From Micropruina glycogenica (GTDB lineage: Bacteria; Actinomycetota; Actinomycetes; Propionibacteriales; Propionibacteriaceae), in contig NZ_LT985188.1 in the NCBI RefSeq assembly GCF_900289045.1, positions 1,364,001 to 1,428,000 on the forward strand: a stretch of 64,000 bases of DNA. Reading direction: 5' to 3'. Shown here piece after piece: positions 14,681 through 42,995 of the stretch. Made by a program: the position numbers and the translations under genes. The notes under the pieces were generated by a model that saw only the letters and a list, made by a program, of their open reading frames with translations, ran no database searches and was not told where the DNA came from. Position 1 is the first letter of the stretch. Each line of letters opens with the position of its first letter.

Positions 14681-14789
14681 GGAACCGTCCCCTGAACCAG
14701 CGGGGACGGTTCTTCCGGTTCAACGGTCTGTCCCCACCCGGTTCAGCTGAACCGACGGAACCGTCCCCCGAACCGGAAGAACCGTCCCC
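14681..14789. repeat. Cluster of four GGAACCGTCCCC / GGGGACGGTTC repeats in both orientations
   Basis: Copies at 14681-14692, 14701-14713 (opposite strand), 14756-14768 and 14778-14789, interspersed with CCGGTTCA and CCGAACCGG. The same word recurs at 31783-31796 (overlapping the end of the DUF3054 gene) and at 61715-61725. Together with the palindrome, these fill most of the 382-base gap 14524-14905, which holds no gene I can support. Confidence 0.7.
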
Positions 14790-14905: not shown

Positions 14906-17848
14906 ATGGAACTGCCGCTGCTGCTCGCGGGTCCGATCCTGCGCCGGGTCGACCCGAGCATCGTCAGCGTCTGGATGGCCTTGAGCAGCGACGCCACGGT
15001 GCGCCTCGACGTCTACGAGGGCCGGGTGGCCTTCGACACCACGAACCCCGTTTTCGTCTCGAGCGACGACGCCCCCGACCCCAACGCACCCAAGCCGTAC
15101 CCCGGTGCCGACACGATTCGCATCGGCGAACGGCTGCACCTCAGCCTGGTGTCGGCACGTATTCCACCCGCCTCGGGCAAGGTCTTCGAAGCAGATCGGC
15201 TGTACTCGTACAACATCACCATCTTCGCCTCGGGCGGCCGGCAAGAGACGCTGCAGTCGCTGCAACTGCTGCAGACCCGCCAGGTCAGCGGCACCACCGC
15301 CGGCCCGCTCGGCTACGCCGACCGCATGCTGCCCAGCTTCGCGCTGCCGCCCAGCAATCTGGACGACCTGCAGATCGCCTACGGCTCGTGCCGCCGCCCC
15401 GGCTACGACGACGGCGACGCCTTTCCCTGGCTCGACCAGTACCTGGCCGAACGGTTCGGCGACCCGCGGGCCCGCCTGCATCAGCTGTTTCTCGGCGGCG
15501 ACCAGATCTACGCCGACGACGTCGAGGACGTGCTGATGCGGCGCGTGGTCGAACTGGGCGTCGAGTTGATCGGCACCACCGCTGCGTCCGGTCAACTCGC
15601 CGGCGAGCCCGACCAGACACCGATCGAACGCGTCACCGTCGACAAGGTGCGGCTGCTCAAGCGCACCGTCGATCCGCAGAACCCCGACGCCGCTTACGAC
15701 GACGAGCCCGCCGCCGCCACCACGGCCAACCCGCTGCCCGCAGGCCCGCCCTGGTTCGGCGTGGGCAACCGGCTGTACCTGACCAACTGCAGCGCCCAAC
15801 TGACCAGCGAGGACGGCAAGAACCACCTGATCTCGCTGGGCGAGTTCGCCGCCGCCTACGTGCTCTACTGGGCGCCGGAATGCTGGGGCACCGACATTCC
15901 CGGCGCGCAACTGCAGACCGGCGCCACCGCGTCGGGCCCCGTGCACTGGCTGGACGTGCTGACCGACAACCAGTCCGTCGCCCTGCCCGACGTCGGCACG
16001 CCGGCGCGGGTGCCGCAGTACACCTTCACCGACGCCACGGTGCGCAAAGACGAACTGGCCAAAGAGGCCGCCCGGCGCGCGAAGCTCAGCCAGGCCGAGC
16101 GCGACGAGGAAGACCAGGACCGCGCCAAAGACAAGGCCAAACAAGACGCCAAGCGGCCCAAGGTCAGCCGCCGCCACCAGCGGGTGCACCGGCAGTTTCT
16201 GGCCGACCTGTGGCGGGCACAGCGACTGCTGGCCAACGTACCCACCTACATGATTTTCGACGACCACGACGTCACCGACGACTGGTTCCTGACCCCCATG
16301 TGGCGGCATCGGGTGCTGAGCACCGGGCTGGGCCAGACGATTCTGACCAACGCGATGACCGCCTACGCGCTGTTCCAGGACTGGGGCAACGACCCACGCC
16401 GCTACGACGTGACCGCGACCGATCGTCCTGACCTGGCGGGCGGGCTGCCCAGCGACGTGCTGGTCGCCGCGCAGAAGTTGTTCCCCGGCGGCGCCGACCA
16501 GGGCCCCGCGAAGGCGCCGTTCACCGCCCTGGGCAAGCTGTTCGGCCACGACCTCGACAACCAGGCCCTGCCCAACGGCGAGTTTCTCTCGGTCAAGCCG
16601 CCGATCGCCTGGCACTTCGTGCTCGACGGCCCCAAACACCGGGTGGTCGCGCTCGACAACCGCACCAGGCGCAGCTACGTCAGCGAGATCGGGCCCCCCG
16701 GCAACGTGTCGAAAGAGGCGCTGGACGCCCAGATTCCCAAGCCGCCGCTGCCGGCCGGGGTCGAGGTGCTGGTGGTGATCGCGCCCCTACAGGTGATCGG
16801 GCCGCCGGTGATCGATGAGGTGGTCAGTCGGGCCATCTACCGCATCTTCGACGCCGTGCACCGCGACGAGGTGGCCGGCGAGAAGATCTCGGGCGCCCGA
16901 CTGATGCCCGGCACCAACCCCGACGCACTCGAAACTTGGGCGCTCGACGAGAACACCTTCGAGTACCTGCTGTCGCGGCTTGCCGACTACGGACGGGTCG
17001 TGGTGCTGTCGGGCGACGTGCACAACGCCGCGTCGAACCTGATGAGCTACTGGCGCGGCACCAGCACCACCCCGGCCCGCATCGCCCAGTTCACCTCGAG
17101 CGGCTTCAAGAACGTGATGCCGGTCTACCTGCAGGCCCTCGACGCCAAGGCGATGCTGCTGCAGCAGATGCTGCGGGCCAAGCTGGGCGTCGAACGGCTC
17201 GGTTGGACGAAGCCCGACGCCGACCTGGTGCTGCTGCCCGCCGGACGCACCGAAGCCGAGCTGGTCACCGTCACGCGCGCCAAGCTGCTGCGCAGCCCGG
17301 TGCTGCTGCCGACCTGGGGCTGGATCGACGACAACTCCGACGGCGAAGACGACGAGGCCAAGCGGTCACGGCTCAACCCGGCCCGGCCGCCCGACTGGCG
17401 CTGGCGGGTGACGCCCCTGCTCGACGAGCGACCCGACGTGGTGCCCACTCCCCCGCCCAAAGACCCGAACGCGGTACGGCCCACCCCGATCCGGGTGTTT
17501 CCGCTCGACGAGGCCGGCATCGAAGACCTGGCGGGTGACCCGTCCACCACCTTCGCCGCCCTGCGCCAGGTGGCGGTGCGGCACCAACACGCCCTGGAGC
17601 GCATGCGCAACACCCGGCAGATGATGTTCCGCTCGAACTTCGGCATTTGCCGCTTCGAGAGCAAAGACGACCAGGTGACGGCGGTCGGCGAGGTGTACAC
17701 CCAGGCGATCGATCCCGACACCCAGCTGCCCGTGATGGCGCCGTACATGGTGCACAAGGCCCCGCTGGGGCCGCTCACCGAGGATCCGCCCGAACGGCTG
17801 CGCCGGTTCGTGATCGAGCGGGTGCCCGTGCCGGAGCCCACGCCATGA
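14906..17848 (+). CDS. PhoD-like metallophosphatase, first gene of five-gene operon
   Basis: 980 residues from the ATG at 14906 with GAAGGGGG upstream; the frame extends to 14867 but has no site there. The N-terminal 150 residues form a beta-rich domain before DLQIAYGSCRRPG. Metal-binding motifs of the PhoD family are complete: FLGGDQIYADD (Asp199), MIFDDHDVTDDW (about 452-458) and VVLSGDVHNAAS (about 702-709). An insert around residues 380-425 is highly charged (KAARRAKLSQAERDEEDQDRAKDK pattern) and looks like a coiled coil. There is no signal peptide or Tat motif, unlike secreted PhoD, so it probably acts in the cytoplasm or is exported another way. Substrate is unknown; phosphodiesters are likely. 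It overlaps the next gene by ATGA. Confidence 0.8.
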   Translation: MELPLLLAGPILRRVDPSIVSVWMALSSDATVRLDVYEGRVAFDTTNPVFVSSDDAPDPNAPKPYPGADTIRIGERLHLSLVSARIPPASGKVFEADRLYSYNITIFASGGRQETLQSLQLLQTRQVSGTTAGPLGYADRMLPSFALPPSNLDDLQIAYGSCRRPGYDDGDAFPWLDQYLAERFGDPRARLHQLFLGGDQIYADDVEDVLMRRVVELGVELIGTTAASGQLAGEPDQTPIERVTVDKVRLLKRTVDPQNPDAAYDDEPAAATTANPLPAGPPWFGVGNRLYLTNCSAQLTSEDGKNHLISLGEFAAAYVLYWAPECWGTDIPGAQLQTGATASGPVHWLDVLTDNQSVALPDVGTPARVPQYTFTDATVRKDELAKEAARRAKLSQAERDEEDQDRAKDKAKQDAKRPKVSRRHQRVHRQFLADLWRAQRLLANVPTYMIFDDHDVTDDWFLTPMWRHRVLSTGLGQTILTNAMTAYALFQDWGNDPRRYDVTATDRPDLAGGLPSDVLVAAQKLFPGGADQGPAKAPFTALGKLFGHDLDNQALPNGEFLSVKPPIAWHFVLDGPKHRVVALDNRTRRSYVSEIGPPGNVSKEALDAQIPKPPLPAGVEVLVVIAPLQVIGPPVIDEVVSRAIYRIFDAVHRDEVAGEKISGARLMPGTNPDALETWALDENTFEYLLSRLADYGRVVVLSGDVHNAASNLMSYWRGTSTTPARIAQFTSSGFKNVMPVYLQALDAKAMLLQQMLRAKLGVERLGWTKPDADLVLLPAGRTEAELVTVTRAKLLRSPVLLPTWGWIDDNSDGEDDEAKRSRLNPARPPDWRWRVTPLLDERPDVVPTPPPKDPNAVRPTPIRVFPLDEAGIEDLAGDPSTTFAALRQVAVRHQHALERMRNTRQMMFRSNFGICRFESKDDQVTAVGEVYTQAIDPDTQLPVMAPYMVHKAPLGPLTEDPPERLRRFVIERVPVPEPTP

Positions 17849-20800
17849 GCGCGTCGTCCGTGCTGCGCAGCCTCGCCGGCGAGGTGATCGACTTTCTGGT
17901 GTTCGTCGGCGAACTGCTGGGCGGCGCCAGCGCCGATCAGGCCCGCGAGGCGATTCTGCGCGACCTCGGGGCCAAGCCGGGCAGCGGCGGGTTGGTGCTG
18001 CCGGCCGCGTCCATGGATTCGGTCAAGGCCTACCGCGACTCGATCGACACCGACCTGCAGGCCGACATCGCGGCAGCCGCCGACATCGCGATCGTGATCA
18101 ACGCGATCATCGAGCAGATCGAGACCTGGGGCGGATCCGACTGGTCAGGCCGCACCGACACCCTGATCACCAGCCTGTTCGACGTGCTGGGCCGCACCTA
18201 CGTGCGGCAACGCTGGCCCAAGCTGTTTCTGGTGATCGAGGCGCTGGCGGTGGCCGGCGAACTCACCGGCTCGCTGGGCCCCGGCGAACAGGCGCTGCCG
18301 CACCGCTCGGGCGGCGACACCCACCCCGGCCGGTTCTTCGACTCGCTGCTGACCATTCTGAAGTTCGTCTGGAACCCCGGCCGAACCCTCGACGACCTGG
18401 ACGACACCCGCGAGTGGGCCACCGGCTCGACCCTGAACACCGCCCGCGACGAGTCGTTTCTGGTCATCGACGGCCTGATTCGCGGCATCGTCGCCGCCAT
18501 CGCGGTGATCGACCAGACCAAGGACGAGTTCGACGAGAACATTCTCAGCGACGTGATCGTCGGCTGGGACGGCAAGGGCCTCGACATCGACTCCGACGAG
18601 CGGCCCTCGGCGGCCGACCTGCTGGCCAGCCGCATGGTGTCGCTGTCGCTGCTGCACGAAGCCGACTCGGCCACCGAAGAGCTGAAGGTGACCTGGCTCT
18701 ACCTGCCGCGCCGGCTGGGCAACCCCGCCCGGCCGCACCAAGTGTTCCTCGCCCTCGGTGGCGCGCTGAGCATCGACCAGGTGCTCAACCCGCAGCGCAG
18801 CAGCCACTCGCCCGAGTGGCGGTTCAGGGTCGGGCTGAAGAGCGACGCCGGGGCCGCGCTGCTGATCAGTGGTGACGGCGTCGAGGCCAGCCCTGAGGCG
18901 TCCGGGCTGCAGGCGAGCTTCGGCTACGTGGCCACCCCCGACTCCAGCGGCATCAGCTACGCCCTGCCGCGGGCCACCGGCATGCGGGTCGAACTGGGCG
19001 GACTGTCGTTTCTGCTCACCCTGTCGGCCACCGGGGCCCGGGTGCTGGCGGTGTTCGACAGCTGCGCCCTGGTGGTGGACGGTTCGAGCGCCGACAGCTT
19101 CATGCGCAAGCTGCTGGGCGGCCGTCCGTACCGCACGATGTTCGGCTTCAGCCTGGGTTACGACTCGAACCTCGGCTTCATTCACGAACTGCACCGGGTG
19201 AGCGGCAAGGACGCCACCGGCGCCACCGTGCCGTTCGACTCGGCCGGGCCGGCGGGGCCGTCCGACCTCGACTTGACCCTGCCGCTGGGCGGCGGCGGCG
19301 CGCTGGGCATCAACCCGCTCGAGGTGGTGCTGCGGGTGGCCTGGCGCAGTGCGGACGCCCCCGCCACCGGCTGGGCGGTCGCCGCGGGCGGGCTGATCAC
19401 GTTCAGCGTCACCTGGGGCCCCCTGTACCTGCGGGTCGACCAACTCGGGCTGCTCGCCGAACTCGACACCATGAAGCTGCAGAAAGACCGCAACCTGGGC
19501 CTGGTCGACGCGCACGTCGACGCCAGCCTGCCCACCGGCATCGCGCTGAACATCGATGCCGGCGCGATCAGCGGCGGCGGGGCGATTCACCACGATCCGG
19601 CCTCGGGCGACTACTACGGCGCGGTGGTGCTGCGCATCGCCAAGCGGGTCACGCTGACCTGCCTGGGCCTGGTGTCGACCCGCGACGGCCAGGGCAACCA
19701 GCTCACCTCGTTCATTCTGATCGGCACGGTCGAGCACCTCGGGCTGACCGCCGGCTTCATCACCCTGGACGGCCTGGGCGTGCTGTACGCCGCCGACCGC
19801 ACCCTCGACGTGCCCGCCGTACGCGCCGCACTGCCGTCCGGCAAGCTCAAATACCTGCTCTTTCCGGCCGACCCGGTGAAGACGCTGCCCGAGATGGTGG
19901 CCGGCCTGCGCACCTTCTTTCCACCCAAGGAAGGCACCCACATCTACGGGCTGCTGGTGAAGCTGACCTTCGGCAACGCCGACCATCCGCTGCTGCGGGC
20001 CGACCTGGCGTTGATGCTCGAACGCGACGGCAACACCGACACCTCGCGGCTGCTGGTGCTGGGCCGGGTCAGTTCGGTGCTGCCGCAGGAGCAGGCGGCC
20101 GTGCTCACGCTGAACCTCGACGTGGTGGGCGAGTTCGACTTCGACACCGGCTTCGCCGCCCTCGACGCGGTGCTGTACGAGTCGAAGCTGTTCGGCCGGT
20201 TCACCCTCACCGGCGCGGCGGCGTTCCGGCGGGCCCGCGGCCTCGGCTTCGCGCTTGCCATCGGCGGGTTCAACCCGCGGTTCACCCCGCCGGCCGGCTT
20301 CCCGGTGGTGCCGCGGGTCACCGTGGCGTTGACCAGCGGCGACAACCCCAAGCTGATCATCGAGGCCTACCTGGCGATCACGCCCAACACGCTGCAGTTC
20401 GGCTGCACCGCCTCGCTGTACGCGGCGGCGTTCGGGTTCTCGATCCAGGGCTACATCGGCTTCGACGTGCTGATCGCCTTCTGGCCGCCGCACTTCATCG
20501 CCGACTTCAAAGCCGGCGTGCAGCTCAAGCGGGGCAGCCGCAGCCTGTTCAAGGTCGACGTGAGTGGCACCCTCGAAGGCCCGCTGCCGCTGCGCGTGGC
20601 CGGCAAGGCCACCTTCGGCATTCTGTGGTGGGACTACACGGTCTCGTTCGACAAGACCATCATCGGCGGCAGCAACTCGGTGGTCAGCGAGCTGCTGGAC
20701 GTGCTCACCGAGCTGCTCACCCGGCTCGACGACCCGGCCAGCTGGCGCACCGAGCTGCCGTCCACCGCCGGGCAACTCGTCGGGGTGCGCACCAACCCGG

Positions 20801-21345
20801 CCACCGACGGGCTGTCGCTGCACCCGCTGGGCCGGGTCGTGGTGCAGCAGGGCCTGGTGCCGCTGGGCCTTGATCGCGACATCGACCGCGTCGGCGCCTT
20901 CGTGCCGTCGAACGAGCGGCGGTTCCGCATCACCGCGGCGCGGGTCGGCGGCCGCACCTTCACCGACTTCGACACGGTGCACGACGAGTTTCCCGATAGC
21001 CAGTTCTTCGAACTCACCGAGGCCGAACGGCTGTCGGCTCCCGGCATGGTGGTGCGTCAGGCGGGTGTCGGCTTCGGCGACGACGGGTACGACACCGATC
21101 CTTCGCTGGGCGTGCCGGCCCCCTTCCACTACACCGAGATCGTGGTCGGCGACGACGGCGTGCCGGTGCTGCAGCCCGAGCCGCAGCCGGCGCCGCGCGA
21201 GCACGTGCTGGCGGGCCTGCGCATCAGCGCATCGGCGCGGGCGCTGACCCGCACCGCGCCGTCCGACAGGTTCTCGGGCGTGCGGCGCACCGACGCGCCC
21301 AGGCTGGCGACCCTCGGCCTGGCCCGGACGGCGGGGGTGTCATGA
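17845..21345 (+). CDS. DUF6603-type large beta-rich protein of five-gene operon
   Basis: 1166 residues from the ATG at 17845 (ATGA overlap with the metallophosphatase stop). The first 230 residues are helical (LRSLAGEVIDFLVFVGELLG...). From about 430 to 960 it is glycine-rich and beta-rich, with repeated blocks (GPLYLRVDQLGLLAEL, AGAISGGGAIHHDPASGDYY, AVVLRIAKRVTLTCLGLVS, FGFSIQGYIGFDVLIAFWPP) as in proteins labelled DUF6603, by recall. The C-terminal 100 residues contain YTEIVVGDDGVPVLQPEPQP. No transmembrane helix or signal peptide is clear. Function is unknown; size, beta content and context suggest a structural component. The long antisense frame across this gene is a codon-bias shadow. 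Confidence 0.7.
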   Translation: MSASSVLRSLAGEVIDFLVFVGELLGGASADQAREAILRDLGAKPGSGGLVLPAASMDSVKAYRDSIDTDLQADIAAAADIAIVINAIIEQIETWGGSDWSGRTDTLITSLFDVLGRTYVRQRWPKLFLVIEALAVAGELTGSLGPGEQALPHRSGGDTHPGRFFDSLLTILKFVWNPGRTLDDLDDTREWATGSTLNTARDESFLVIDGLIRGIVAAIAVIDQTKDEFDENILSDVIVGWDGKGLDIDSDERPSAADLLASRMVSLSLLHEADSATEELKVTWLYLPRRLGNPARPHQVFLALGGALSIDQVLNPQRSSHSPEWRFRVGLKSDAGAALLISGDGVEASPEASGLQASFGYVATPDSSGISYALPRATGMRVELGGLSFLLTLSATGARVLAVFDSCALVVDGSSADSFMRKLLGGRPYRTMFGFSLGYDSNLGFIHELHRVSGKDATGATVPFDSAGPAGPSDLDLTLPLGGGGALGINPLEVVLRVAWRSADAPATGWAVAAGGLITFSVTWGPLYLRVDQLGLLAELDTMKLQKDRNLGLVDAHVDASLPTGIALNIDAGAISGGGAIHHDPASGDYYGAVVLRIAKRVTLTCLGLVSTRDGQGNQLTSFILIGTVEHLGLTAGFITLDGLGVLYAADRTLDVPAVRAALPSGKLKYLLFPADPVKTLPEMVAGLRTFFPPKEGTHIYGLLVKLTFGNADHPLLRADLALMLERDGNTDTSRLLVLGRVSSVLPQEQAAVLTLNLDVVGEFDFDTGFAALDAVLYESKLFGRFTLTGAAAFRRARGLGFALAIGGFNPRFTPPAGFPVVPRVTVALTSGDNPKLIIEAYLAITPNTLQFGCTASLYAAAFGFSIQGYIGFDVLIAFWPPHFIADFKAGVQLKRGSRSLFKVDVSGTLEGPLPLRVAGKATFGILWWDYTVSFDKTIIGGSNSVVSELLDVLTELLTRLDDPASWRTELPSTAGQLVGVRTNPATDGLSLHPLGRVVVQQGLVPLGLDRDIDRVGAFVPSNERRFRITAARVGGRTFTDFDTVHDEFPDSQFFELTEAERLSAPGMVVRQAGVGFGDDGYDTDPSLGVPAPFHYTEIVVGDDGVPVLQPEPQPAPREHVLAGLRISASARALTRTAPSDRFSGVRRTDAPRLATLGLARTAGVS

Positions 21346-24155
21346 CCGAGCCCGCCCTGCTGTTTCTGCCCTGGGTGCGCCGGGGAGGCGCGCTGAGCCT
21401 GCCGCCCGACCTGCCGAGCGGTCATCCGCCCAGCCACGTCAGCACCACCGTCGGGGTGAGCGTGAACGATCGGCCGGGCGCCGACGTGCCGGTGCAGCTG
21501 CTCGGCCCCGGCGACGTCACCGGTGTGGCGCCGCAGCAGGTGATTCGCAGCGACCCGGCCCCCAACGCCCGCACCTTCGAGTCGAACTACCTCGCCTTGG
21601 TGGAGTTCGACGACCCGGGCCTGCCCTGGCTGTTCACCCCGGCGTCCGCGTCGGACGGCAAGCTGCGGCCCTGGCTCTGCCTGGTGGTGGTGCGCGAGCA
21701 GCCCGGCGTGCGACTGCTGCCGGCCGGCAAGGGTGCGCTGCCGGTGCTGCACGTCGGCACCCCCGCCCGTCCGGAGGTCGAGCTGCCGAACCTGGCCGAC
21801 TCGTGGGCGTGGGCGCACGCCCAGGTGGCCCTCGACGGGGCGGCCGGCTCAGCGGCCGTGGCGGCGGCGCTGGCCGGCGATCCGGCCCGCAACCTGTCGC
21901 GCCTGATGTGCGGACGGCTACTCGCCGAGCAGACCCCGTACCTGGCCTGCGTGGTGCCCACCTTCGAGGCCGGACGGCGGGCCGGGCTGGGCGACGACCC
22001 GGGCGACGCCCAAGGCCCGGCCTGGACGATCGCCGACGGCATGGGCACCGTCGAGCTGCCGGTGTACCACCATTGGCGGTTCGCCACCGGGCCGAGCGGC
22101 GACTTCCAGTCGCTGGCGCTGGCGATTCGGGGCCGTCCGGTCGAGGACGGCTTCGGATTGCGGCCGATCGACCTGTCGACCGCCGGGCTGGGGCTGAGCG
22201 GCACCGACGACGCCCAGGAACTGCTCGGCGGCGCGCTGCTGGCCCTGGACGCCCCTACCCAGCGGTGGAGCGACCCGGCGCTGCCCGATCGGTTCTCAGC
22301 TGCGCTCGAGCCGGTGCTCAACGCTCCCGATTCGGCGCCGGCCGCCGAGCCCCTGCTGGCCCCGCCGCGGTACGGCTCGGCCTACCGCACGCCGGCCACG
22401 CTCGCCTCGGGCAGTTGGTACGAGCAGCTCAACCTCGACCCGGCCGCGCGGGTGGCGGCGGCGTTGGGCACGCTGGTGATCCAGCGCCAGCAAGAGACCT
22501 TGGCCGCGGCCGCCTGGGAACAGTCCGCCGACCTGTCGGCAGCGACCCGGGTGGTGGGGTTGGCCGGGCTCGGCTTCGCGCTGGCCGACAGCCTGCACCG
22601 GCGGCACGTGGCGCCGCTGTCGCCCGAGGTGGGGCTGTTCGTGCTGGCCCCGCTGCGCGCGGCCATGATGACCGCACCACCCGCCTCGGGCGGGCAGAGC
22701 TTCGCCGTGCAGTGGAACCGGGCCCGGCTGCCGGGCGCCGCGCTCGGCTCGGCCGTCCGCCGGGTCACCCGGGTGCGCGGCCCGGCCGTCCGCACCGCCG
22801 AGCGCGACGGCACCATGCCGCCGCTGCTCGACTGGATCGGCAGCATGGTGCCCAGCGCCCGGCTGGCGCGCAGCTTCGCGGCCCCCAGCGGCCCGCTCAC
22901 CTTCGACGGTGTCGGCCCGACGGTGCCGTCCGCGCGCGTGCTCTCTTGGGCGGCGCTCACCGCCGACGCGGTCACGAATTCAATGCCCCACCCGGGCTTC
23001 GCGCTGTCGGCCACCCCGGCCCCGGCGGGTCCGCGACCTTTTCCGCTGCCGGGCGGGATCGTCACCGGAGGGGTGTTCACCGAGGCGGTGGGCGGGCCGG
23101 CGGCCCGCCCGGCGCTGCGCCGGCCCGACGATGGCGGCGGCCCGAGCCCGATCCGGCGGCGACCGGGTGACGGCGGGGAGCCCCCAGATCCGCCGGATCC
23201 GCCCGATCTGCCGGATCGGCCCCACCACCCACCCCCGCGCGACAGTGCCGCCGCGGCGCTCTTCCGCACCGTGGCGGCCAAGCAGCTCGGCCGCTTCGCG
23301 CCGGTCACTGCTGACTCGGGCACCGCGACCGGCACCGTGGTGCTCGGCACCCTGATGGCCGAGGCGGTGGCGCTCACCGCGCCGATGCGCACGTTCACGG
23401 CCGCGATCGGTGCGCTGTTCACCACCGCGCCGGCACCCGCCACCGATGACACCCCCATGCCCGACCTGCGGTTCACCCCCCGGTTCGACTCCCCGATGGC
23501 GCACTCGTTGGCCGAACTGGGCGAGCAGTGGCTGCTGCCGGGGCTGGCCGGCGTGCCCGCCAACACCGCCCTGGGTCTGCGCACCAACGGCGCCTTCGTC
23601 GAGGCGTTCATGGTCGGGCTCAACCACGAGTTCGGCCGTGAACTGCTCTGGCGCGAGTTCCCCACCCGGCTGACCGCCACCTTCTTCGACCGGTTCTGGG
23701 ACGCCGCGGTGGCCCCCACCGAGCCGCCCGACATTCCCCAACTGGACCAGTGGGCCGACCGCGCGCTGGGCGCGCCGACGATTCGTCCCGAGCGGTTCGT
23801 GTTGCTGCTGCGCAGCGAGCTGATGCGCCGCTTCCCCGACGCGGTGGTCACCGCCACCAAGCGCGGCGCCGCGCCCGGCCAGGCCCTGCTGCCCACCTTC
23901 CGCGGTTCGCTCGACCCCGACGTCACCTTCTTCGGGTTCGCGATTCCGCTGGCCGATGCCGACCAGTACGCGATCAGCATCGCCGAGCAGCCGGGTGCGC
24001 CGCGGTTCGGTTTCGAGGTGGGCGAGGCTCCGAGTGACGTGAGTCACGCGCCGGCGACGGACGCCTCGGCGGCCAAACTCGCCGGGCGGCTGCGCCAGTT
24101 GCCGTCCCGCATCACGATTCCGGTGCAGGTGCTGATGAGGAAGCCCGAGTCATGA
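21342..24155 (+). CDS. Unknown 937-residue protein of five-gene operon
   Basis: It begins MTEPALLFLPWVRRG and is coupled to the previous gene by ATGA. Recognisable blocks: ARTFESNYLALVEFDDPGLP followed by WLFTPA and LRPWLCLVVV (residues about 75-125), VYHHWRFATGPSGDFQSLA (about 240), a Pro/Asp-rich linker (PPDPPDPPDLPDRPHHPPP, about 610-630), and a C-terminal part with NHEFGRELLWREFPTR and RPERFVLLLRSELMRRFPDA then DVTFFGFAIPLADA. I recall similar blocks only in uncharacterised proteins next to the same kinds of neighbours. No enzyme motif, signal peptide or membrane helix is visible. The linker suggests two separable globular halves. Confidence 0.75.
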   Translation: MTEPALLFLPWVRRGGALSLPPDLPSGHPPSHVSTTVGVSVNDRPGADVPVQLLGPGDVTGVAPQQVIRSDPAPNARTFESNYLALVEFDDPGLPWLFTPASASDGKLRPWLCLVVVREQPGVRLLPAGKGALPVLHVGTPARPEVELPNLADSWAWAHAQVALDGAAGSAAVAAALAGDPARNLSRLMCGRLLAEQTPYLACVVPTFEAGRRAGLGDDPGDAQGPAWTIADGMGTVELPVYHHWRFATGPSGDFQSLALAIRGRPVEDGFGLRPIDLSTAGLGLSGTDDAQELLGGALLALDAPTQRWSDPALPDRFSAALEPVLNAPDSAPAAEPLLAPPRYGSAYRTPATLASGSWYEQLNLDPAARVAAALGTLVIQRQQETLAAAAWEQSADLSAATRVVGLAGLGFALADSLHRRHVAPLSPEVGLFVLAPLRAAMMTAPPASGGQSFAVQWNRARLPGAALGSAVRRVTRVRGPAVRTAERDGTMPPLLDWIGSMVPSARLARSFAAPSGPLTFDGVGPTVPSARVLSWAALTADAVTNSMPHPGFALSATPAPAGPRPFPLPGGIVTGGVFTEAVGGPAARPALRRPDDGGGPSPIRRRPGDGGEPPDPPDPPDLPDRPHHPPPRDSAAAALFRTVAAKQLGRFAPVTADSGTATGTVVLGTLMAEAVALTAPMRTFTAAIGALFTTAPAPATDDTPMPDLRFTPRFDSPMAHSLAELGEQWLLPGLAGVPANTALGLRTNGAFVEAFMVGLNHEFGRELLWREFPTRLTATFFDRFWDAAVAPTEPPDIPQLDQWADRALGAPTIRPERFVLLLRSELMRRFPDAVVTATKRGAAPGQALLPTFRGSLDPDVTFFGFAIPLADADQYAISIAEQPGAPRFGFEVGEAPSDVSHAPATDASAAKLAGRLRQLPSRITIPVQVLMRKPES

Positions 24156-27100
24156 CCGCCGCCGTGAACCTCGGCCCGCTCACCGCCGACGCCCTGCTGG
24201 CCGACGCCCGGCTGAGCGGCGAGCTCGGCCCGGGCAGTCACCCGCTGGCGCTTTTGCCGGTGCGGCTCGAAACTCGCTACGCCGGCGGCGAGTTGCTGGT
24301 GCGCATCTACCCCGACCAGGTGCACGTCGACGCGCACGACGAGCGGCTGTCGGCGGCCGAGCAACAGGCCGGGCAGGACTTCTGGCGCGCCCAGTGGCGC
24401 ACCGGTGCGAACCAGGCGCGGCAACAGCGCATCTGGGCTCCGCTGGCCGGCCGCTACGGCGCCGGCCGGGCCGGCTGGGTGGTGCGCGCGACTCGTCCGA
24501 GCAACGGCACGCAGCGGCCGACGGGCGAGGTGGGCGACGACGCGCCGCTCGCGGTCGAACCGTCGTTCGCCCCCATCGACACCACGGACGAGCGCCGCAC
24601 CCCCGTCGCCCGGCTGCTGCCGGCCCGCTGGACGGTGACCGCGTACGCGGGCGGCCAGGTGCTGGCGGTGGCCACCGGCGCACCGATCACCATCGACCCC
24701 GCGGTCGGCCCCGACCTGGCCGCTCCGCTGGTGGGCGACGCCGACGATCACGAGGTGGCCGCGGTCGACACCGGCATGAACTGGTTGGTCGACTTCGCCG
24801 GCGCCGAGCAGCTGGGCATGGCGGTGCGGCTGCCGGTGACCGGCCCCGTCGACCTGCTGGTGGCCACCGGGGTGCGGGGCGTCGACCCGGCGGCGGGAGC
24901 CGTCCAGTTGGCGGCGCTGTTGCAGGCGCAGCGGTATTCGGCCGGGCTGGGTTTTCTGCCGCCCGAGGCGCCGACGAACAACTCAGACGCGGCCGGCTCG
25001 GCGTGGTCGAGCGGCGAGGTGGGTGCCTGGTCGGCGGCCGATACCGAACCCGCGACCGGTTCGGTGGGGGCGGCCACGGCGGTGGCGCTCGGCGTGGCAC
25101 TGCCCGGGTCGCTGCCCCACGCGGGCGACACCGACGATCTCACCGCCCCGATGACGCGCGCTCTGTGGCCGGCGACGTGGGGGTACTGGCTGGCCCAGTT
25201 CGCCGGGGTGGACGGCGCGAGCACCGACTGGGGCCGTGACTTCGCCGTGCGGTTCCTGAGGCCGGGCGGGCCGCTGCCCACGCTGCGGGTCGGACGGCAG
25301 CCGTACGGCCTGCTGCCCGTCACCTCGGTGGGCCGGTTCGCCGGCGACCCCCGGTCGACCCGGCTGAGCCGGGTGATCGCCGGGCTGCGCGACGGCGCGT
25401 GGCGGCCGGCCGTCGACCTGGCCCCCAGGGTCGGCCGGGCCGACGTGGCCACCGACCTGGTCGACGTGCTGAGGCTCGAGGGACGCTCCGACGACCTTCG
25501 GCTGCGGCGCAGCATGGGCGCGCGGTTCGCCGACAACCTGCAGCGGTTACTGGGCGCGGCGACGACCGAGGGCGGGTTCTGGAATGCAGCCCGCGACCGG
25601 TCGCTGCCGCTGGCCAACGCGGCCGGGCTGGGCCTGGTGCCGGGGGCACTCACGGTGCACGAGCCGTCCACACACCCGGTGACGCTGCCGCTGGTGGCGC
25701 CCTCGACCGACCTGGGTTTCATCGCCGCGCTGCTGGCCGCCGACCCCGACGCCCTGGCCGGCGCCACCGACGCCCCGGTGTCGGTGCTGGCCGCGCTGCT
25801 GCGGCACGGGCTGCTGCGCGAGCACGCCGACGCCGCCGCCCGGCTGCTGTCGCTCGGCGCCGCCGACGCCGAGTTCTACGGCTTCGGCGACGACGCCACC
25901 GGCTGGACGGCCCGGCGCGCCACCGTGCTGCCCGACGGCCACACCGTGGCGCAGCGCCTGGCCGACGGACCCGTGGGCTCGCTGACCGACTTCCGGACGG
26001 CCGTGAACACCCTGGCGGCGGCGTCCGTGCCCGCTCTGGAGCGGCAGTTGCTGCAGTCGATCGACGCCACCTCGCACCGGCTGGACGCCTGGGCCACCGC
26101 GCTGGCCACCGCCCGGCTCGACGAGGTGCGCACGGCCAACCCCGACGGCGTGCTGATCGGCGGGTACGGCTGGGTGGAGGGGCTGGCCCCCACGACCAGC
26201 GCTGCGGCCACGCCACTGCCGACCGGAGAGCCGGGGCCGCTGCTGGCGGCGCAGAGCGACCCCGGGTTCGTCCATGCCCCCTCGGTGCACCAGGCGCAGG
26301 TCGCCGCCCTGGCCCGCAACGCCCACCTGGCCCACGGCGGGGGCGAGCACGACCCGTTTGCGGTCAGCCTGACCTCAGAGCGGGTGCGGCTGGCCCGCTG
26401 GCTCTTCGACGGCGTGCGCGCGGGCCGCAGCCTGGGGGCCGTGCTCGGTTACCTGGTCGAGCGCGACCTGCACGAACGCCGCCTCGACTTCGCCGTGCTG
26501 CCGGCCCGTGAGGTGTGCCCGCTGCCCGGGCAGGAGGCCTTCTCGCTCGAAGCCAGGCGGCTCGACGGCCTGCGGCTGCACCAGTTGTGGGCGGGCAGCG
26601 AAGATCACGCGGTCGATCACCTGGTGTCGATGAGCCGCACCCCCACCGACGACGAACGCCGTCGCGCCGTGGGCGTGCTGCGCCGGCTGGCCGCAGCCGT
26701 CGACGCAGCGGCCGACGCCCTGCAGGCCGAGCAGGTGCACCAGTTCGCCCGGGGCGATCTCAGCCGGGCGGTCAGCAGCGTGGCCGACCTCGACCGCGGC
26801 CTGGCTCCCCCGCCCGAGCTGGACTTTCTGGCCACACCACGCACCGGGGCCGCGGTCACCCACCGGGTGGTCGTGCTTTTCGACCCCGACGCCGCCCCGG
26901 CCGCCGGCTGGGCAACCGCGGCGACGTCGCCGTCCGCGGCCGCCGAACCGGCACTGGACGCCTGGCTGAGCCACCAGCTCGGGCCCGCGATCGGACGGGT
27001 GCTGCGCCTGGCCGGTGAGCCGCCCGTCGACGTGCCGTGGGGCAGCCTCGGCATGGCGGCCGGCGATTTCGTGCGGTTGGCCGGTGGCGGCTCGGCGTTG

Positions 27101-28234
27101 CGCGAACTCGCCGTGCGGGCGGCGGTGGCGGCGGGCCGTCCGGTCGACGTCGCCGAGCTGACGCCAGACGACGACCTGCTGGCCCTGCTCGAACTGGGCG
27201 GCTCGCTGGCGGCCCTGGTGGCCTCGGCCAAGGGGCTGGACGGCGCCGCCCTCCAGCCGCCGCACGCCGACCCGGTGCCCGGCGTCGACCTGCCCGAACT
27301 GGCCGCCCGCGCGGCGGCGGCCCGGCGTGCGCTCGGCGCGGTGGTCGACCGGTTGAACGCCGCCCTGGCGACCCCCGACGACAGCGACGCTCTGCAGGCG
27401 GCCGTGGTGGCATCGTGGCCGTTCGCGGTGGGCGAGGCGGGGCTGCCGACGGTGAAGTCCGGGTGGGTGGCGGCCGCCGCCCGGGTGCTGGCCGACCTGA
27501 CCGCCCGGCTGGCCGAACCGGTCGCGGCGAGCGACGATGCCGCAGCCCTGGGTCGCGAACTGGCGGCCCTGCAGGGGCCGGGCTTCGTGGCGGTGCCCAG
27601 GTTCACGGCCGGCACCATGCCCGACCTGATCGCCTCGCGCGACGACCCCGCGCTGGTCGGCGGCGACCCCCTGGCCGCCGAGGTGTGGGTGACCCGCATG
27701 GAGCGAGTGCGCGAGCCCTTGGCGCGGTTGGGCATCGCGGCGCGTGAGGCCGAGGCCCTCGGCGGGCCGGCCTTCGAGCCGGTGGTGGCACAGGTGCCCT
27801 ACCACCCGGGTGACACCTGGAACGCCTTGCCGGCGCCCCATTACGTCGATGCGGCGACCTCGCTGCTGCTGATCGGCGGGCCGGTGCTGCGTGCAGGCGC
27901 CACCCTCGCCGGGCTGCTGGCCGACGAGTGGGCCGAAGTGGTGCCGTCGGCGTCCGAGACCACCGGGGTGGCCTTTCGCTACGACCCGCCGGAATCGATG
28001 GCGCCCCAGGCGATTCTGCTGGCCGTGCCGCCGGTACTCGACGAGCCGTGGACGGTGGGCCGACTCAACCAGGTGCTGGTCGAGACCCTCGAACTGGCGC
28101 ACCTGCGGGCCGTGCCGCCCGAGGCGCTGGGGCCTGCCCGGCAGTATCTGCCGGCCGCGGTGCTGGCGTTCAACGCCGAAGGCGACGCGCCCTCCACCGA
28201 TCCCAACGGGCTGACCCCGGCGGCGGGAGGCTGA
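24152..28234 (+). CDS. Unknown 1360-residue protein of five-gene operon
   Basis: The longest protein of the window, coupled by ATGA. The N-terminus has LALLPVRLETRYAGGELLVR then IYPDQVHVDAHDERL (about 30-65), the central part is alanine-rich and helical, and the C-terminus carries YHPGDTWNALPAPHY, AGLLADEWAEVVPS, ETTGVAFRYDPPESMAPQAI and RLNQVLVETLELAHLRAV. From memory these are conserved blocks of a family without known function that travels with the 937- and 577-residue types. No catalytic motif, membrane span or export signal is evident. A large scaffold or tail-like structural role is possible but unproven. Confidence 0.75.
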   Translation: MTAAVNLGPLTADALLADARLSGELGPGSHPLALLPVRLETRYAGGELLVRIYPDQVHVDAHDERLSAAEQQAGQDFWRAQWRTGANQARQQRIWAPLAGRYGAGRAGWVVRATRPSNGTQRPTGEVGDDAPLAVEPSFAPIDTTDERRTPVARLLPARWTVTAYAGGQVLAVATGAPITIDPAVGPDLAAPLVGDADDHEVAAVDTGMNWLVDFAGAEQLGMAVRLPVTGPVDLLVATGVRGVDPAAGAVQLAALLQAQRYSAGLGFLPPEAPTNNSDAAGSAWSSGEVGAWSAADTEPATGSVGAATAVALGVALPGSLPHAGDTDDLTAPMTRALWPATWGYWLAQFAGVDGASTDWGRDFAVRFLRPGGPLPTLRVGRQPYGLLPVTSVGRFAGDPRSTRLSRVIAGLRDGAWRPAVDLAPRVGRADVATDLVDVLRLEGRSDDLRLRRSMGARFADNLQRLLGAATTEGGFWNAARDRSLPLANAAGLGLVPGALTVHEPSTHPVTLPLVAPSTDLGFIAALLAADPDALAGATDAPVSVLAALLRHGLLREHADAAARLLSLGAADAEFYGFGDDATGWTARRATVLPDGHTVAQRLADGPVGSLTDFRTAVNTLAAASVPALERQLLQSIDATSHRLDAWATALATARLDEVRTANPDGVLIGGYGWVEGLAPTTSAAATPLPTGEPGPLLAAQSDPGFVHAPSVHQAQVAALARNAHLAHGGGEHDPFAVSLTSERVRLARWLFDGVRAGRSLGAVLGYLVERDLHERRLDFAVLPAREVCPLPGQEAFSLEARRLDGLRLHQLWAGSEDHAVDHLVSMSRTPTDDERRRAVGVLRRLAAAVDAAADALQAEQVHQFARGDLSRAVSSVADLDRGLAPPPELDFLATPRTGAAVTHRVVVLFDPDAAPAAGWATAATSPSAAAEPALDAWLSHQLGPAIGRVLRLAGEPPVDVPWGSLGMAAGDFVRLAGGGSALRELAVRAAVAAGRPVDVAELTPDDDLLALLELGGSLAALVASAKGLDGAALQPPHADPVPGVDLPELAARAAAARRALGAVVDRLNAALATPDDSDALQAAVVASWPFAVGEAGLPTVKSGWVAAAARVLADLTARLAEPVAASDDAAALGRELAALQGPGFVAVPRFTAGTMPDLIASRDDPALVGGDPLAAEVWVTRMERVREPLARLGIAAREAEALGGPAFEPVVAQVPYHPGDTWNALPAPHYVDAATSLLLIGGPVLRAGATLAGLLADEWAEVVPSASETTGVAFRYDPPESMAPQAILLAVPPVLDEPWTVGRLNQVLVETLELAHLRAVPPEALGPARQYLPAAVLAFNAEGDAPSTDPNGLTPAAGG

Positions 28235-28235
28235 C

Positions 28236-29969
28236 ATGGCGTCGATCACCACGTTCTTCAGGCTCGAGCCCGACCCGCTGCGGCCCGACGTCACGGTGGG
28301 TGCGACCGCGCCGCTGCACGACCCGCTGTGGCTGTTGGCCCGGCAGTGGCAGACCGGCGAGTTCGCCGCGCAAGACGGCGGCACGCCCGTCGTGGCCCGC
28401 TGGCGCGGAGTGGTGGCGCCGCCGACCCGGTTCGTGGCCGGCCGCATTCCGCCCGACACCCAGCTGCAGGCACCGCGCTTCGATGCGTCGGCGGCACCGT
28501 TGGAGACGCTGATCGAGGCGGTCGGGACGACGCTGCCGGCGGGTGCCGACGGGTTGGCCGGGCTGCGGCTCGGCGTCGACACCGGACGGCTGTTTCTGCG
28601 GCTGTTCGCCGCGCAGAGCACGTCGCGCGACTACGGCCCGGCCCTGGTCACGGCGTTCGCGGTGCCTCGCTACGCCGACGACGTGCTGGCCCAGGCCGAT
28701 CAGGCCACGGCCGGCTATGCGCGGCTGCATGGCGGCCGCAGCCTCGACGGTCGCCGGTTGCGCGCCGAGCTGGCGGGGCGTCCGTTGCCCCGGTTCGGCG
28801 AGCAGGTCGCCGCGGGCGACGTGGCCGAGGTGCGCGCGGCCTGCGCCGACTGGCTGGCCCTGGTGGCGGAGCTGTTCGACGACGTCGACGCTGCCGCAGA
28901 GAGTTGGCAGCCCGACCGGTTCGAGTACACCGCGTCGATCTCGGCGCGGCTCGGCCCGAGCGGCTTCGACGAGACCACGCTGACCGCGCAGCGCTACGAC
29001 AGCGACGTGCTCGACTGGTACGAGTTCGACGTCAACGGCGAGGTGAACCTGGGCACCACACCGGCCGAGGCGGGCGAGACGCTGGTGCGCACGGTGATGC
29101 CGGCTCCGGTGACGGCGCCGGGCCTGCCGGCGCGGCGGTTCTGGGAGTTCGAGGACGCCGCGGTCAACCTGGCCGCCCTCGCCCCCGCCGAAACCGACCT
29201 GGCCCAGGTGCTGCTCATCGAAACCCTGTCTGGCTACGGCAACGACTGGTTCGTGATCGGCGTCGACCTGCCGGTCGGACGGCTGGTGCGCTCGACCTCG
29301 TTGGTGGTCACCGACACCTTCGGTGCGCGCACGCTGTTGAACCCGATCGGCACCACTTCCGCCTTGGCGCCCGGCTGGAGCATGTTCCAGCACGCGATGC
29401 CCTTCGACGACGCGGCCCCCGAGGGTGCGACGATCCGCAACCTGTTGTATCTGGCGCCGCGGCTGGCCCGTCCGGTGGTCGGCGGCGTGGTCGAAGAGGT
29501 GCTGCTGGCCCGCGACGAGGTGGCCAACCTGAGTTGGGCGATCGAGCAGATCGTCGAGTCGCCGCTGCAGGGGCCGGTGCGGCTGAGTTCGGCCCGTCCG
29601 CCCGACCCGCCGGGGGACCCCGACGTGGCCCCCGACTACCACCTGGCGCAGGCGCCACCCCCGCACTGGATTCCGCTGCTGCCGGTGCGCACCGGGTCCG
29701 ACGAGCAGGTGTCGCTGGCCCGCGGTTCGGTGCTCGACCTCGACGGACGCCGGGTGGTGACGAGCGTCACCGAGCTGCTCGGCGGTGGCCCGGACGGCGC
29801 CCTGCTGATTCCCGAAGAAGAGGTGCCGGTGGGTGGGCTGCTGGTGCAGCGCAGCTACCAGGCCGCCCGCTGGACCGACGGCACCCTGCACGTCTGGGCC
29901 GCACACCGCACCAAGGTGCCGGGCTCGGTGCCGCCCAGCGGCGTCCGGTACGACTACCTGATCGAGTGA
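28236..29969 (+). CDS. Unknown 577-residue protein, last gene of five-gene operon
   Basis: The ATG follows the previous stop by a single base. The N-terminus has FFRLEPDPLRPD and the block HDPLWLLARQWQTGEFAAQD (about 28-47), which I recall as the hallmark of this uncharacterised family. Later blocks include YGNDWFVIGVDLPVGRLVRS and NLLYLAPRLARPVVGGVVEE. The C-terminus is beta-rich (QRSYQAARWTDGTLHVWAAH). No signal peptide or membrane span is seen. The operon ends 64 bases before the stop of the convergent dop gene, with a REP-like GGGAGATCCCGGCG word in between. Confidence 0.75.
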   Translation: MASITTFFRLEPDPLRPDVTVGATAPLHDPLWLLARQWQTGEFAAQDGGTPVVARWRGVVAPPTRFVAGRIPPDTQLQAPRFDASAAPLETLIEAVGTTLPAGADGLAGLRLGVDTGRLFLRLFAAQSTSRDYGPALVTAFAVPRYADDVLAQADQATAGYARLHGGRSLDGRRLRAELAGRPLPRFGEQVAAGDVAEVRAACADWLALVAELFDDVDAAAESWQPDRFEYTASISARLGPSGFDETTLTAQRYDSDVLDWYEFDVNGEVNLGTTPAEAGETLVRTVMPAPVTAPGLPARRFWEFEDAAVNLAALAPAETDLAQVLLIETLSGYGNDWFVIGVDLPVGRLVRSTSLVVTDTFGARTLLNPIGTTSALAPGWSMFQHAMPFDDAAPEGATIRNLLYLAPRLARPVVGGVVEEVLLARDEVANLSWAIEQIVESPLQGPVRLSSARPPDPPGDPDVAPDYHLAQAPPPHWIPLLPVRTGSDEQVSLARGSVLDLDGRRVVTSVTELLGGGPDGALLIPEEEVPVGGLLVQRSYQAARWTDGTLHVWAAHRTKVPGSVPPSGVRYDYLIE

Positions 29970-39851: not shown

Positions 39852-40187
39852 GCGCCGCATCGCGGGTGGACACGCGCTCATGCCGATGATCGAGCTTGCA
39901 GATCCATCTGGTGCCGAGAGGCCAGGCATGAATTCGACCGACCACCGTGAGTGCCGCATGGACGCTCACCGCGTGATCTACAGGCCTCGCTGATGACTCT
40001 TGTGCCAGTCTGGTCCAGACCGAATAGTTCGGCCCGTACTCGCAAGCTTCTTCGGTACTCTTGCAAATGGCGAACGCCGAAGAGCTTGCGACCTTTCGTG
40101 CGCCGTCCCGCGGGCCTGAGCGGTCGTGATCCATGCGATCCACTTAGTTCCCGACGTCCTCGATACCGCTCTCTGGAAGGAGATAGT
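39852..40187. other. Gap after metH: junction of second island, with inverted repeat
   Basis: 336 bases with no supported gene. CGCAAGCTTCTTCGG at 40041-40055 and CCGAAGAGCTTGCG at 40077-40090 form an inverted repeat with one unpaired base and a 21-base loop, about 100 bases before the NACHT gene start. Base composition falls from here into the NACHT gene, so the left edge of the island lies in this gap. A GAGCGC...GCGCTC hairpin just after the metH stop may end metH transcription. Confidence 0.5.
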
Positions 40188-42995
40188 GTGGTAGTGGAGG
40201 CCTCAGCCGCCGCGGCAACGCTTGCTACGGTTAACCAGTTGGTCTCAGTCGGACGCGCCGGTGCGTCCGTTGCCCGCACAGTCAGCAATTACTTCAACGG
40301 CGACATCAAGTGGCTCTACATGACAGATGCGGCCGACTTGTACTCAATGAGCGAGATTGCTGATATAAACGCGTTCTTGAAATCTGCGGAAATTGTGCCG
40401 CTGCTTCAACTAACGTGGATAGGCGTTGCGATAAATGACGATGATCCCGAGGCTCGGTCAACTGTCCGCGCTACCTTCAAAGCGGCTGCCGTATCCTGGT
40501 GCGTCAGGACTGGTTCGAAATGGCACAAGAAGTCGGACACTATATTCGACGCGATGGTCTCACGCGTGCGCGCTCTAGTTCCACGCCACTTGTCCGACGA
40601 GCATGGTGCCGAGTTAGCTGAACACACACTCATTTGGGGCCCGCTTGATGATCGCGAGGGTCGATCAGCGTACATCTCAAATCTGCTTGCGCTGGCATCT
40701 GACCTAGATACCTTAACAAAGTGCATCGACCTCTCGAGAAACATCGGTGATCTTGCCTCGAAGTCTTATCAATTGAGCCTGGCTCACCTTGACGCGGCAG
40801 AGCATATAGCTGATCGCAATGCTCTGTACGTTGAGAGGACCGTGACTATCGATGGGAAGGTTCACGCGTCGGGATCACTGGTGGCCCCCGAGGAGGTCAG
40901 ACGACTTGTCCTCCTGGGAAATCCAGGGGCCGGCAAGACCTCTCTTGTGAATCATGTAGCGGGCCTCTCTGATCGGTTCGGATGCCTCCCAGTACTTGTG
41001 TGCAAGTGTCGTGAGTATGTCTCCGAAGACTGGAACGCCTCGATCGAGTCGGCCTTGGAGAGACGCCTCGTCGCAATTGGTATAGGAGCAGACCCTCGCG
41101 CCCTCACTGCCGCGTTGCTTCTCGGTCACCTGGTCGTGGTTTTTGACGGGCTTGACGAGATCACAGATATTGGGCGGCGAGAAGAGATGACCGCGAGAAT
41201 TGCACGCTTCTGTGTGCGATTCCCTCTGGTCTCGACAATCGTCACTTCGCGAGCAGTCGGATATGAACGCACACCCCTTCCGCGAACGCTGTTCGAATTG
41301 GCCGATCTCGATGAGTACAGTGAAGACCAGTCTGAGGAGTATGCCGAAAGATGGTTTAGAAGTGTGGGTCGCGGCGAACTGTTCCAGCCCTTTGTTAACG
41401 ATATCCAAAGCATCCGCGATATTGCACGCAATCCCCTTTTGTTATCTCTTCTCTGCTCACTTTACCGAGCTCGGGGCCATCTTCCTACTAACAGACACGG
41501 GGTGTACCACCAATGCGCCGAGCTTCTTTACCGTCAATGGGATGCTCAACGGCAGATCGCGCAATCTGAAGACCTGCCCGATTATGGTACAGCGATCATG
41601 TGCAGCATTGCGCACTTCTTCTGGAATGTGCCAAGTGCCACAAATGCTGATGAATCTCAGTTGCGAAAGCTCATTGCCGTCGAACTCCAGCAAGGCGGAG
41701 CGTCTGACAGTGCGTCGCAAGTGCGGGCCTCGGACTTCCTTGAGTTTTGCAAGGACAGACTATGGCTGTTGGTGCGCGGCGCAGTCAACTCACGCGGAGA
41801 GCCAACTTTTGAGTTCGCACATCGCACTTTTCTCGAGTACTTTGCCGCGGAGTACTTGGCCCGAGGTGCCAATCGGGCCGAAGACCTTGCAGAAAGCATA
41901 CGAGTTGCCTATGCGCGCGACCCAACGTCGGTGATGCCGGTACTTTTGATTCAAAGTTATGATGATAAGCGCAGTCCTGGAGCCACGGCTGTGTACTCAA
42001 GGGTTCTTGCGTTCGAAAACCCCGTCCTCGCGCTGAGGCTAATGAACGCGAAACTGCCAGCCATTCAACGACAGAAGGGTTTCAAGCTCGTCGAGAATTA
42101 CCTGTCCGGTGGTGCAGAGCTTAGTCTCGACGCGTTCGAGGCGATCTTGGCAATGTACAGGGATCCCCGGGAGCAATTTGTACAAGATTATCTGAGCGCA
42201 GATGATTCACCCCTCTGTTCGGAGGTCGCCAGAGGTTGGGCTGCATACTGCCTTTCTGGACGCCATAGAGACCCCTTACTCCCCTTAGCGAACGATTTGG
42301 AATCGACTTGTCAGACGCGCGTCGAGGCACTGAGCGAAAGGGGCAGTGCATTCCGAGACTTTAGCCTGCTCGCGCATTGCGCGCTTGGAGGTTCGATAAG
42401 TATGCAAAAGGCGGGCATTGCGCCCTTTGTCTTCTTTAGGGGCTTTGAGGCCAACGAGTGGGGTGCAGGATACTTTCTTGCACTAGAGCGTAGACGTCGA
42501 CCATTCTCTGAGGAGCGGGGGGACGAACTGGCTAACTATTTGTGTTCGCAGTGGGCCAACGGACACGTGGTGCCAAAGGAACTCGTTCAGGTGAGAACTC
42601 CAGTAGCCGCAATGGAATTGACCAATCTCGACCACCTCACCCACGTAGAACACCACGCCTTGTTCGGCCTCTACTGCATCCTCGCTGAGGGACTGACAAA
42701 GTACGAGCGACGACAGAGTGCTGAATGGCTCCGCCTTGCGTTGAATACAGTGGTCGATGTGACGGCGATCGAAGCGGTACGAGCCTACTTCGTCGACCTG
42801 TCTGACAGGCCGGATCGACAGCTCGCCCTACGTGCCAGAGATGCAGTTCGCAAACTTCCGGCATGGGTGAATGACTGGATGACTGGAAAACACTGGATCA
42901 CGAGCACTGCGAATCCTCGGGAACTTGGTTGGCGACGTCAGCTATTACTGCCAGTAGAAGAAAGAAGGGCTCGTCGTCACCGCACCTCGCGGTAG
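40188..42995 (+). CDS. NACHT-domain STAND NTPase, candidate NLR-like antiphage protein
   Basis: 935 residues from the GTG at 40188, five bases after GGAAGGAG; the open frame upstream (from 39951) is unlikely to be coding. The N-terminal 200 residues match no effector I know. The NTPase has Walker A LLGNPGAGKTSLVNH (about 242-256), Walker B LVVVFDGLDEITD (about 315-327, with the NACHT-type DGLDE) and a sensor TSRAVGYERTPL. FEFAHRTFLEYFAAEYLA (about 541-558) is the conserved winged-helix end of bacterial NACHT proteins. The C-terminal 370 residues are helical and may be the sensing region; no clear repeats are seen. GC content is visibly lower, with codons such as ATA and TTA that core genes avoid. 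Bacterial NACHT proteins of this form defend against phages; that role here is inference. Confidence 0.85.
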   Translation: MVVEASAAAATLATVNQLVSVGRAGASVARTVSNYFNGDIKWLYMTDAADLYSMSEIADINAFLKSAEIVPLLQLTWIGVAINDDDPEARSTVRATFKAAAVSWCVRTGSKWHKKSDTIFDAMVSRVRALVPRHLSDEHGAELAEHTLIWGPLDDREGRSAYISNLLALASDLDTLTKCIDLSRNIGDLASKSYQLSLAHLDAAEHIADRNALYVERTVTIDGKVHASGSLVAPEEVRRLVLLGNPGAGKTSLVNHVAGLSDRFGCLPVLVCKCREYVSEDWNASIESALERRLVAIGIGADPRALTAALLLGHLVVVFDGLDEITDIGRREEMTARIARFCVRFPLVSTIVTSRAVGYERTPLPRTLFELADLDEYSEDQSEEYAERWFRSVGRGELFQPFVNDIQSIRDIARNPLLLSLLCSLYRARGHLPTNRHGVYHQCAELLYRQWDAQRQIAQSEDLPDYGTAIMCSIAHFFWNVPSATNADESQLRKLIAVELQQGGASDSASQVRASDFLEFCKDRLWLLVRGAVNSRGEPTFEFAHRTFLEYFAAEYLARGANRAEDLAESIRVAYARDPTSVMPVLLIQSYDDKRSPGATAVYSRVLAFENPVLALRLMNAKLPAIQRQKGFKLVENYLSGGAELSLDAFEAILAMYRDPREQFVQDYLSADDSPLCSEVARGWAAYCLSGRHRDPLLPLANDLESTCQTRVEALSERGSAFRDFSLLAHCALGGSISMQKAGIAPFVFFRGFEANEWGAGYFLALERRRRPFSEERGDELANYLCSQWANGHVVPKELVQVRTPVAAMELTNLDHLTHVEHHALFGLYCILAEGLTKYERRQSAEWLRLALNTVVDVTAIEAVRAYFVDLSDRPDRQLALRARDAVRKLPAWVNDWMTGKHWITSTANPRELGWRRQLLLPVEERRARRHRTSR

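Follow-up and report, generated by a model that had tools for sequence, protein, structure and literature searches.

The locus lies in a window of 64,000 nucleotides, the whole stretch of DNA that was analysed, which covers positions 1364001-1428000 of the closed, 3,844,677-base genome of Micropruina glycogenica. The closed genome of strain Lg2 has been published at 3.84 Mb (PMC5974061). The sequence-only reading had placed five genes on one strand here, and all five frames are indeed open at the coordinates and lengths collected in Table 1. Successive genes are closely packed: the first three junctions are four-base overlaps (ATGA) at 17845, 21342 and 24152, and a single base separates gene 4 from gene 5.

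Table 1. Genes of the operon, with positions counted from the first base of the window.
Gene	Product	Length (aa)	Position	Strand	Assigned role	Basis
1	PhoD-like metallophosphoesterase	980	14906..17848	+	occupant of the exchangeable slot	Pfam, metal motifs
2	DUF6603 protein; predicted helical N-terminal region, then a long antiparallel beta-meander	1166	17845..21345	+	core	Pfam, AF2
3	FG-GAP propeller insertions in some relatives	937	21342..24155	+	core	locus conservation
4	nearly lysine-free protein	1360	24152..28234	+	core	adjoins genes 3 and 5 across loci
5	predicted novel fold; one lysine	577	28236..29969	+	core	AF2, Foldseek, GTDB relatives

The GC3 of the five genes is 0.91-0.94, and their dN/dS against Micropruina sp. 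KQZ13P-5 is 0.20-0.30, with values of 0.20 for metH and 0.25 for dop as comparison genes. Together, these figures indicate five real coding genes under purifying selection. The closest named relatives of gene 5 also come from Micropruina (81-85%). In strain KQZ13P-5 the operon occupies the identical site, flanked by der/tyrA-like genes and dop-metH. The operon is vertically inherited in Micropruina, among housekeeping neighbours, and a housekeeping role would be compatible with this arrangement as well.

Two further features of the window were observed. At 14682-14789, 5' of the operon, GAACCGTCCCC occurs in four exact copies in both orientations. The copies are part of a dispersed tandem repeat with 130 paired matches genome-wide, compared with 0 for a reversed control pattern. 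At 40001-44000, past metH, the GC content falls to 0.55-0.60, followed by what appear from the sequence to be transposase-like genes and an istA/istB pair; the GC drop and these genes suggest mobile DNA.

Protein families, composition and predicted folds

The protein of gene 1 (P0001) matches the Pfam PhoD family (PF09423) at 4.9e-5 and, at its N-terminus, DUF7800 at 0.0045, both under the cut-off. The PhoD score is 23.1 bits against a cut-off of 27, and a relative at locus L147 reaches 36.4 bits. In an alignment of 25 slot proteins, all four metal motifs of PhoD (SCR, GDQIYADD, DDHDVTDDW and GDVH) are present in gene 1, and they are kept in its slot relatives. Characterised PhoD enzymes are typically exported by a Tat signal. 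Gene 1 differs from them: it has neither an N-terminal hydrophobic segment nor a twin-arginine leader, and it belongs to a distinct subfamily that here occupies the slot beside DUF6603. Gene 2 is a clear member of DUF6603 (PF20248; 4.4e-95, 319.6 bits against a cut-off of 27, residues 518-1060), a family to which Pfam assigns no function.

No Pfam, NCBIfam or PADLOC family matched proteins 3-5, their PHROGs matches did not rise above chance, and their profiles scored no better than chance against PDB chains. The complete PhoD-type metal ligands and the DUF6603 assignment noted in the sequence-only reading are borne out, whereas the families without function that it named for proteins 3-5 are not: these proteins belong to no family at all in the collections searched. 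Its view that signal peptides are absent also stands: neither the core proteins nor the slot enzymes showed one at the N-terminus. On membrane helices it needs qualifying, since protein 2 has one hydrophobic helix at 204-222 (mean Kyte-Doolittle 2.17). A transmembrane helix common to the whole gene 2 family was considered and rejected, because this helix is kept in close relatives only.

The composition of the core proteins is unusual. Gene 4 encodes 2 lysines in 1360 residues and gene 5 one in 577, and across 63-64 loci proteins 3-5 contain much less lysine than the gene 2 product that accompanies them (p about 1e-11). Escape from pupylation was rejected as an explanation, since the depletion is also found in taxa that we presume to lack Pup, and gene GC accounts for part of it.

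The AF2 model of gene 5 (mean pLDDT 82, pTM 0.79) had no match at E<=0.001 among PDB and viral folds, which suggests that the predicted fold is novel. The gene 2 model has a pLDDT of 75 overall, mostly about 90 in residues 510-940, and a pTM of 0.52. It consists of antiparallel strands of 10-18 residues in series, in which hydrophobicity alternates (z 4.8 compared with shuffles within strands). The top Foldseek matches were an SlpA-type outer-membrane barrel (E 3.6e-5), LptD (4e-4), ushers and ApoB. The TM scores of these matches are low, at 0.13-0.14 for the SlpA-type barrel and LptD, so that only the general type, a barrel or a groove, can be claimed.

Four conserved core genes and an exchangeable enzyme

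The proposal that the five genes form a single system turned on whether their families recur together in other genomes, and they do. In profile searches, gene 5 was accompanied by genes 3 and 4 in 88 of the 89 related loci with enough flanking sequence; one of the 88 (L068) was counted once its apparent loss of gene 4 had been recognised as an assembly gap. Just one gene 5 stands alone, on a plasmid of Streptomyces and close to transposases. By profile searches gene 2 was present in 23/24 loci with room for it, and the order DUF6603-3-4-5 was found in all 14 genome loci compared. Where all four core genes (2-5) occur, they share one order and strand in 70 of 71 loci, the exception being Leptolyngbya sp. 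PCC 7375 with a rotated arrangement (3-4-5-PhoD-2). All nine genomes of the order that carry gene 5 also carry DUF6603 and gene 3. The overlapping starts were found again in annotated plasmid copies, and in L035 genes 4 and 5 are one open reading frame.

Pairwise distances of the core proteins are strongly correlated (Mantel r 0.92-0.96; 0/500 permutations), and the correlation is still 0.73-0.88 among pairs more than 40% diverged. Core genes 2-5 therefore co-evolve. Their co-occurrence, fixed order and correlated evolution lead us to treat them as one system.

This system is widespread and patchy. Gene 5 relatives, with this genome included, occur in 9/149 genomes of the order and 7/296 of the phylum sample, and at least 548 were found in GTDB contigs. 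Among 80 of these, from which the taxonomic spread was read, are members of Actinomycetota, Pseudomonadota, Nitrospirota, Cyanobacteriota, Acidobacteriota, Verrucomicrobiota, Chloroflexota, Bacteroidota, Bacillota, Myxococcota, one Goldiibacteriota bin and Halobacteria. Plasmid copies add Gemmatimonadota and further haloarchaea, and overall the core spans at least 12 bacterial phyla and haloarchaea. A viral origin was considered on the strength of one partial IMG/VR match and one unverified fecal 'phage' scaffold carrying the genes, and was rejected.

The position upstream of gene 2 behaves differently. Comparison of contig coordinates showed that half of the named genomes (22 of 44) have a PhoD-like gene directly adjoining gene 2, and the same pair occurs in one haloarchaeon. 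Elsewhere the slot is taken by a peptidase M64 (Methylocaldum, Nitrospira defluvii, a Pseudonocardiaceae bacterium and genome G256), by a phospholipase D (PLD) at the second DUF6603 copy of N. defluvii, by a Rv2525c-type glycoside hydrolase, by a subtilase (S8) or by NAL1/trypsin-like proteases. In Polyangium an alpha/beta hydrolase is in frame with DUF6603, at L163 the upstream gene is a histidine kinase, and about ten loci have slot genes with no recognised enzyme domain. Two Streptomyces/Saccharothrix copies have lost the PhoD motifs and gained a peptidoglycan-binding domain. A PhoD-DUF6603 fusion suspected in L170 was discarded, as PhoD lies in another frame. In N. defluvii (L149, 6501-18174) two DUF6603 genes lie in tandem, one paired with a PLD and the other with an M64 slot enzyme, and a single core set follows them.

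At least 13 changes of slot type were counted on the gene 5 tree. Well-supported sister pairs differ in their enzyme (Rhizobacter with PhoD and Methylocaldum with M64; Amycolatopsis with a protease and the Pseudonocardiaceae bacterium with M64), indicating recent swaps under a nearly identical core. The enzyme is thus the exchangeable part and genes 2-5 the conserved core, a division that the first reading of the locus did not foresee.

Candidate docking domain and added modules

The NAL1-like proteases and the subtilase have unrelated catalytic domains and a common C-terminal domain of 96 residues (hhalign probability 96.7, E 3.3e-10) with the motif WHRxQGPA. Among the 149 genomes of the order, this domain was found in five copies in three genomes, and the 44 named genomes added four copies in three genomes. 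In total, all nine matches in about 190 genomes lie immediately upstream of gene 2. Two different enzymes carry the domain, and only at this position, which points to a connection with the core, and we propose from this sequence pattern that it probably docks the protease-type enzyme onto the core. Profile comparison revealed no docking domain that all slot classes share: the PhoD, M64, PLD and glycoside hydrolase occupants, gene 1 of this window included, do not carry the 96-residue domain. In Saccharothrix yanglingensis a second operon (L195, 1748-18587) contains two tandem proteases bearing the docking-type domain.

Additional modules accompany the core in several lineages. FG-GAP repeats were detected in 9 of 23 long relatives of genes 3, 4 or 5 that were scanned. 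Kelch domains lie beside DUF6603 or are fused to it (in frame in L177), WD40 and PQQ propellers adjoin gene 5 in some lineages, and in haloarchaea lamin-tail domains are fused to gene 5. Three related genomes (L024-L026) encode, 3' of gene 5, an uncharacterised 929-residue protein and an amidase that carries a peptidoglycan-binding domain; a relative of the former is also found in the L049 plasmid region. Variant architectures were seen as well. L181, L182 and L183 have a frame of 3300-3500 residues that includes DUF6603; a gene-3-like protein and two more uncharacterised genes come next, and gene 5 is missing. In L184 and L185 the set consists of two giant genes (about 2260 and 1200 residues), the first of which encodes a distant DUF6603 stretch.

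A putative modular assembly and its alternatives

A conserved set of four genes in fixed order, preceded by differing enzymes, suggests a machine with exchangeable tools. A multi-protein assembly is plausible from the sequences, and we infer that the core proteins associate physically with one another and with the slot enzyme. We consider it rather probable that the operon encodes a modular assembly of a hitherto undescribed kind, which would act as scaffold or carrier for an interchangeable hydrolase. In the mechanism that we propose, genes 2-5 would supply the four-protein scaffold or carrier, which bacteria and archaea have conserved as one set, and gene 1 would supply one exchangeable hydrolase, a PhoD-type phosphoesterase here and other hydrolases elsewhere. 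Enzymes of the protease type would probably be attached to the core by their dedicated C-terminal domain. Recognition modules (FG-GAP, kelch/WD40 propellers, lamin-tail and peptidoglycan-binding domains) would join the core or its neighbours lineage by lineage. The assembly could then bring the hydrolase to a large target, such as the cell envelope, a matrix or an invader, without classical secretion.

Antagonism or defence would be the most likely purpose of such an assembly; we prefer them to nutrition in view of the frequent enzyme swaps and the absence of export signals. Caution is called for, since the dN/dS of 0.20-0.30 is ordinary and carries no diversifying signal of the kind expected of an arms race, and the location in Micropruina is a housekeeping one. 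A storage system, also suggested in the sequence-only reading, finds no support.

Several known systems offer comparisons. Extracellular contractile injection systems are an analogy in how they work only, in that a conserved multi-protein vehicle carries variable cargo without signal peptides; here, however, there is no sheath, and the core has no phage-structural match above chance. The sheath family PF04984 is absent from this genome (three control genomes were positive), which makes sheath-based injection unlikely, and no tube, baseplate or AAA ATPase match was obtained for the five proteins in Pfam or PHROGs. Tc toxin complexes and polymorphic toxins, by analogy, have very large subunits, propellers in some cases and an exchangeable enzymatic part. 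In those toxins the exchangeable part is a C-terminal cassette, whereas here it is a separate 5' gene, and Pfam found no TcA, TcB/SpvB or RHS domains in the five proteins. Avs/STAND-type defence systems likewise combine a conserved core with interchangeable hydrolytic effectors and a patchy distribution; unlike them, the five proteins here have no NTPase or sensor domain in Pfam.

These comparisons bear on the alternative readings. It is possible, if somewhat unlikely, that the products form an antagonistic, toxin-like particle, secreted or released by lysis, that resembles extracellular injection or toxin complexes in its working but is built from unrelated parts, and in which gene 2 would serve as a pore or membrane-spanning beta-structure. 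The predicted beta-meander of gene 2, its nearest folds among large beta-barrels and its strand hydrophobicity alternation are consistent with this, as are the envelope-active slot enzymes and neighbours (PhoD, peptidoglycan-binding proteins, amidase) and the lysine-poor proteins of genes 3-5. However, the TM scores to barrels are low (0.14), a lipid-binding groove is compatible with the meander as well, this genome has no sheath gene, and neither an immunity gene nor an export route was found. An intracellular anti-phage or anti-plasmid defence complex, in which the core senses the invader and activates the slot hydrolase within the cell, seems to us unlikely. The patchy distribution (9/149 genomes of the order), the plasmid copies, the swapping of effector types and the absence of export signals would all fit, and two slot enzymes, the subtilase and a DrmC-like PLD, resemble defence-library models. 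Those two matches are generic to the respective folds, though, and PADLOC returned no match for the five window proteins and none for 8 of 10 other slot or accessory proteins scanned. The housekeeping genes that flank the operon in Micropruina also speak against defence, and modules of extracellular type (FG-GAP, peptidoglycan binding, amidase) fit it poorly.

PhoD, peptidases, lipase-like enzymes and glycoside hydrolases typically serve in nutrient breakdown, and many hosts come from wastewater or soil, so a cell-surface or matrix complex that scavenges phosphate, peptides or lipids by a cellulosome-like logic was also weighed. We judge this quite improbable: neither core nor enzymes have signal peptides, sorting, anchor and S-layer domains are absent from the Pfam matches of the five proteins, and four giant co-conserved partners per enzyme would be left unexplained. 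A chance neighbourhood of unrelated genes, for which nothing speaks beyond the usual gene density of actinobacteria, has a negligible probability, being refuted by the conserved adjacency of genes 3-5 across many phyla and by their correlated evolution.

Returning to the modular assembly, we give about an even chance to the more specific proposal that genes 2-5 represent an undescribed class of machine, shared by bacteria and archaea, whose domain-docked, interchangeable hydrolase is delivered to a target cell or invader. DUF6603/PF20248 is not mentioned in the literature searched, whose scope excluded most subscription journals, so that a description elsewhere is possible; a search on M64 or PhoD clusters likewise returned nothing relevant. 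Within that literature, the operon context, the exchangeable enzyme and the partner proteins appear to be undescribed. An ordered unit of four giant proteins, combined with repeated swapping of the hydrolase, is the genetic pattern that a widespread machine would leave. If the proteins do assemble as proposed, the product would represent a new enzyme vehicle or platform in microbial conflict or envelope biology.
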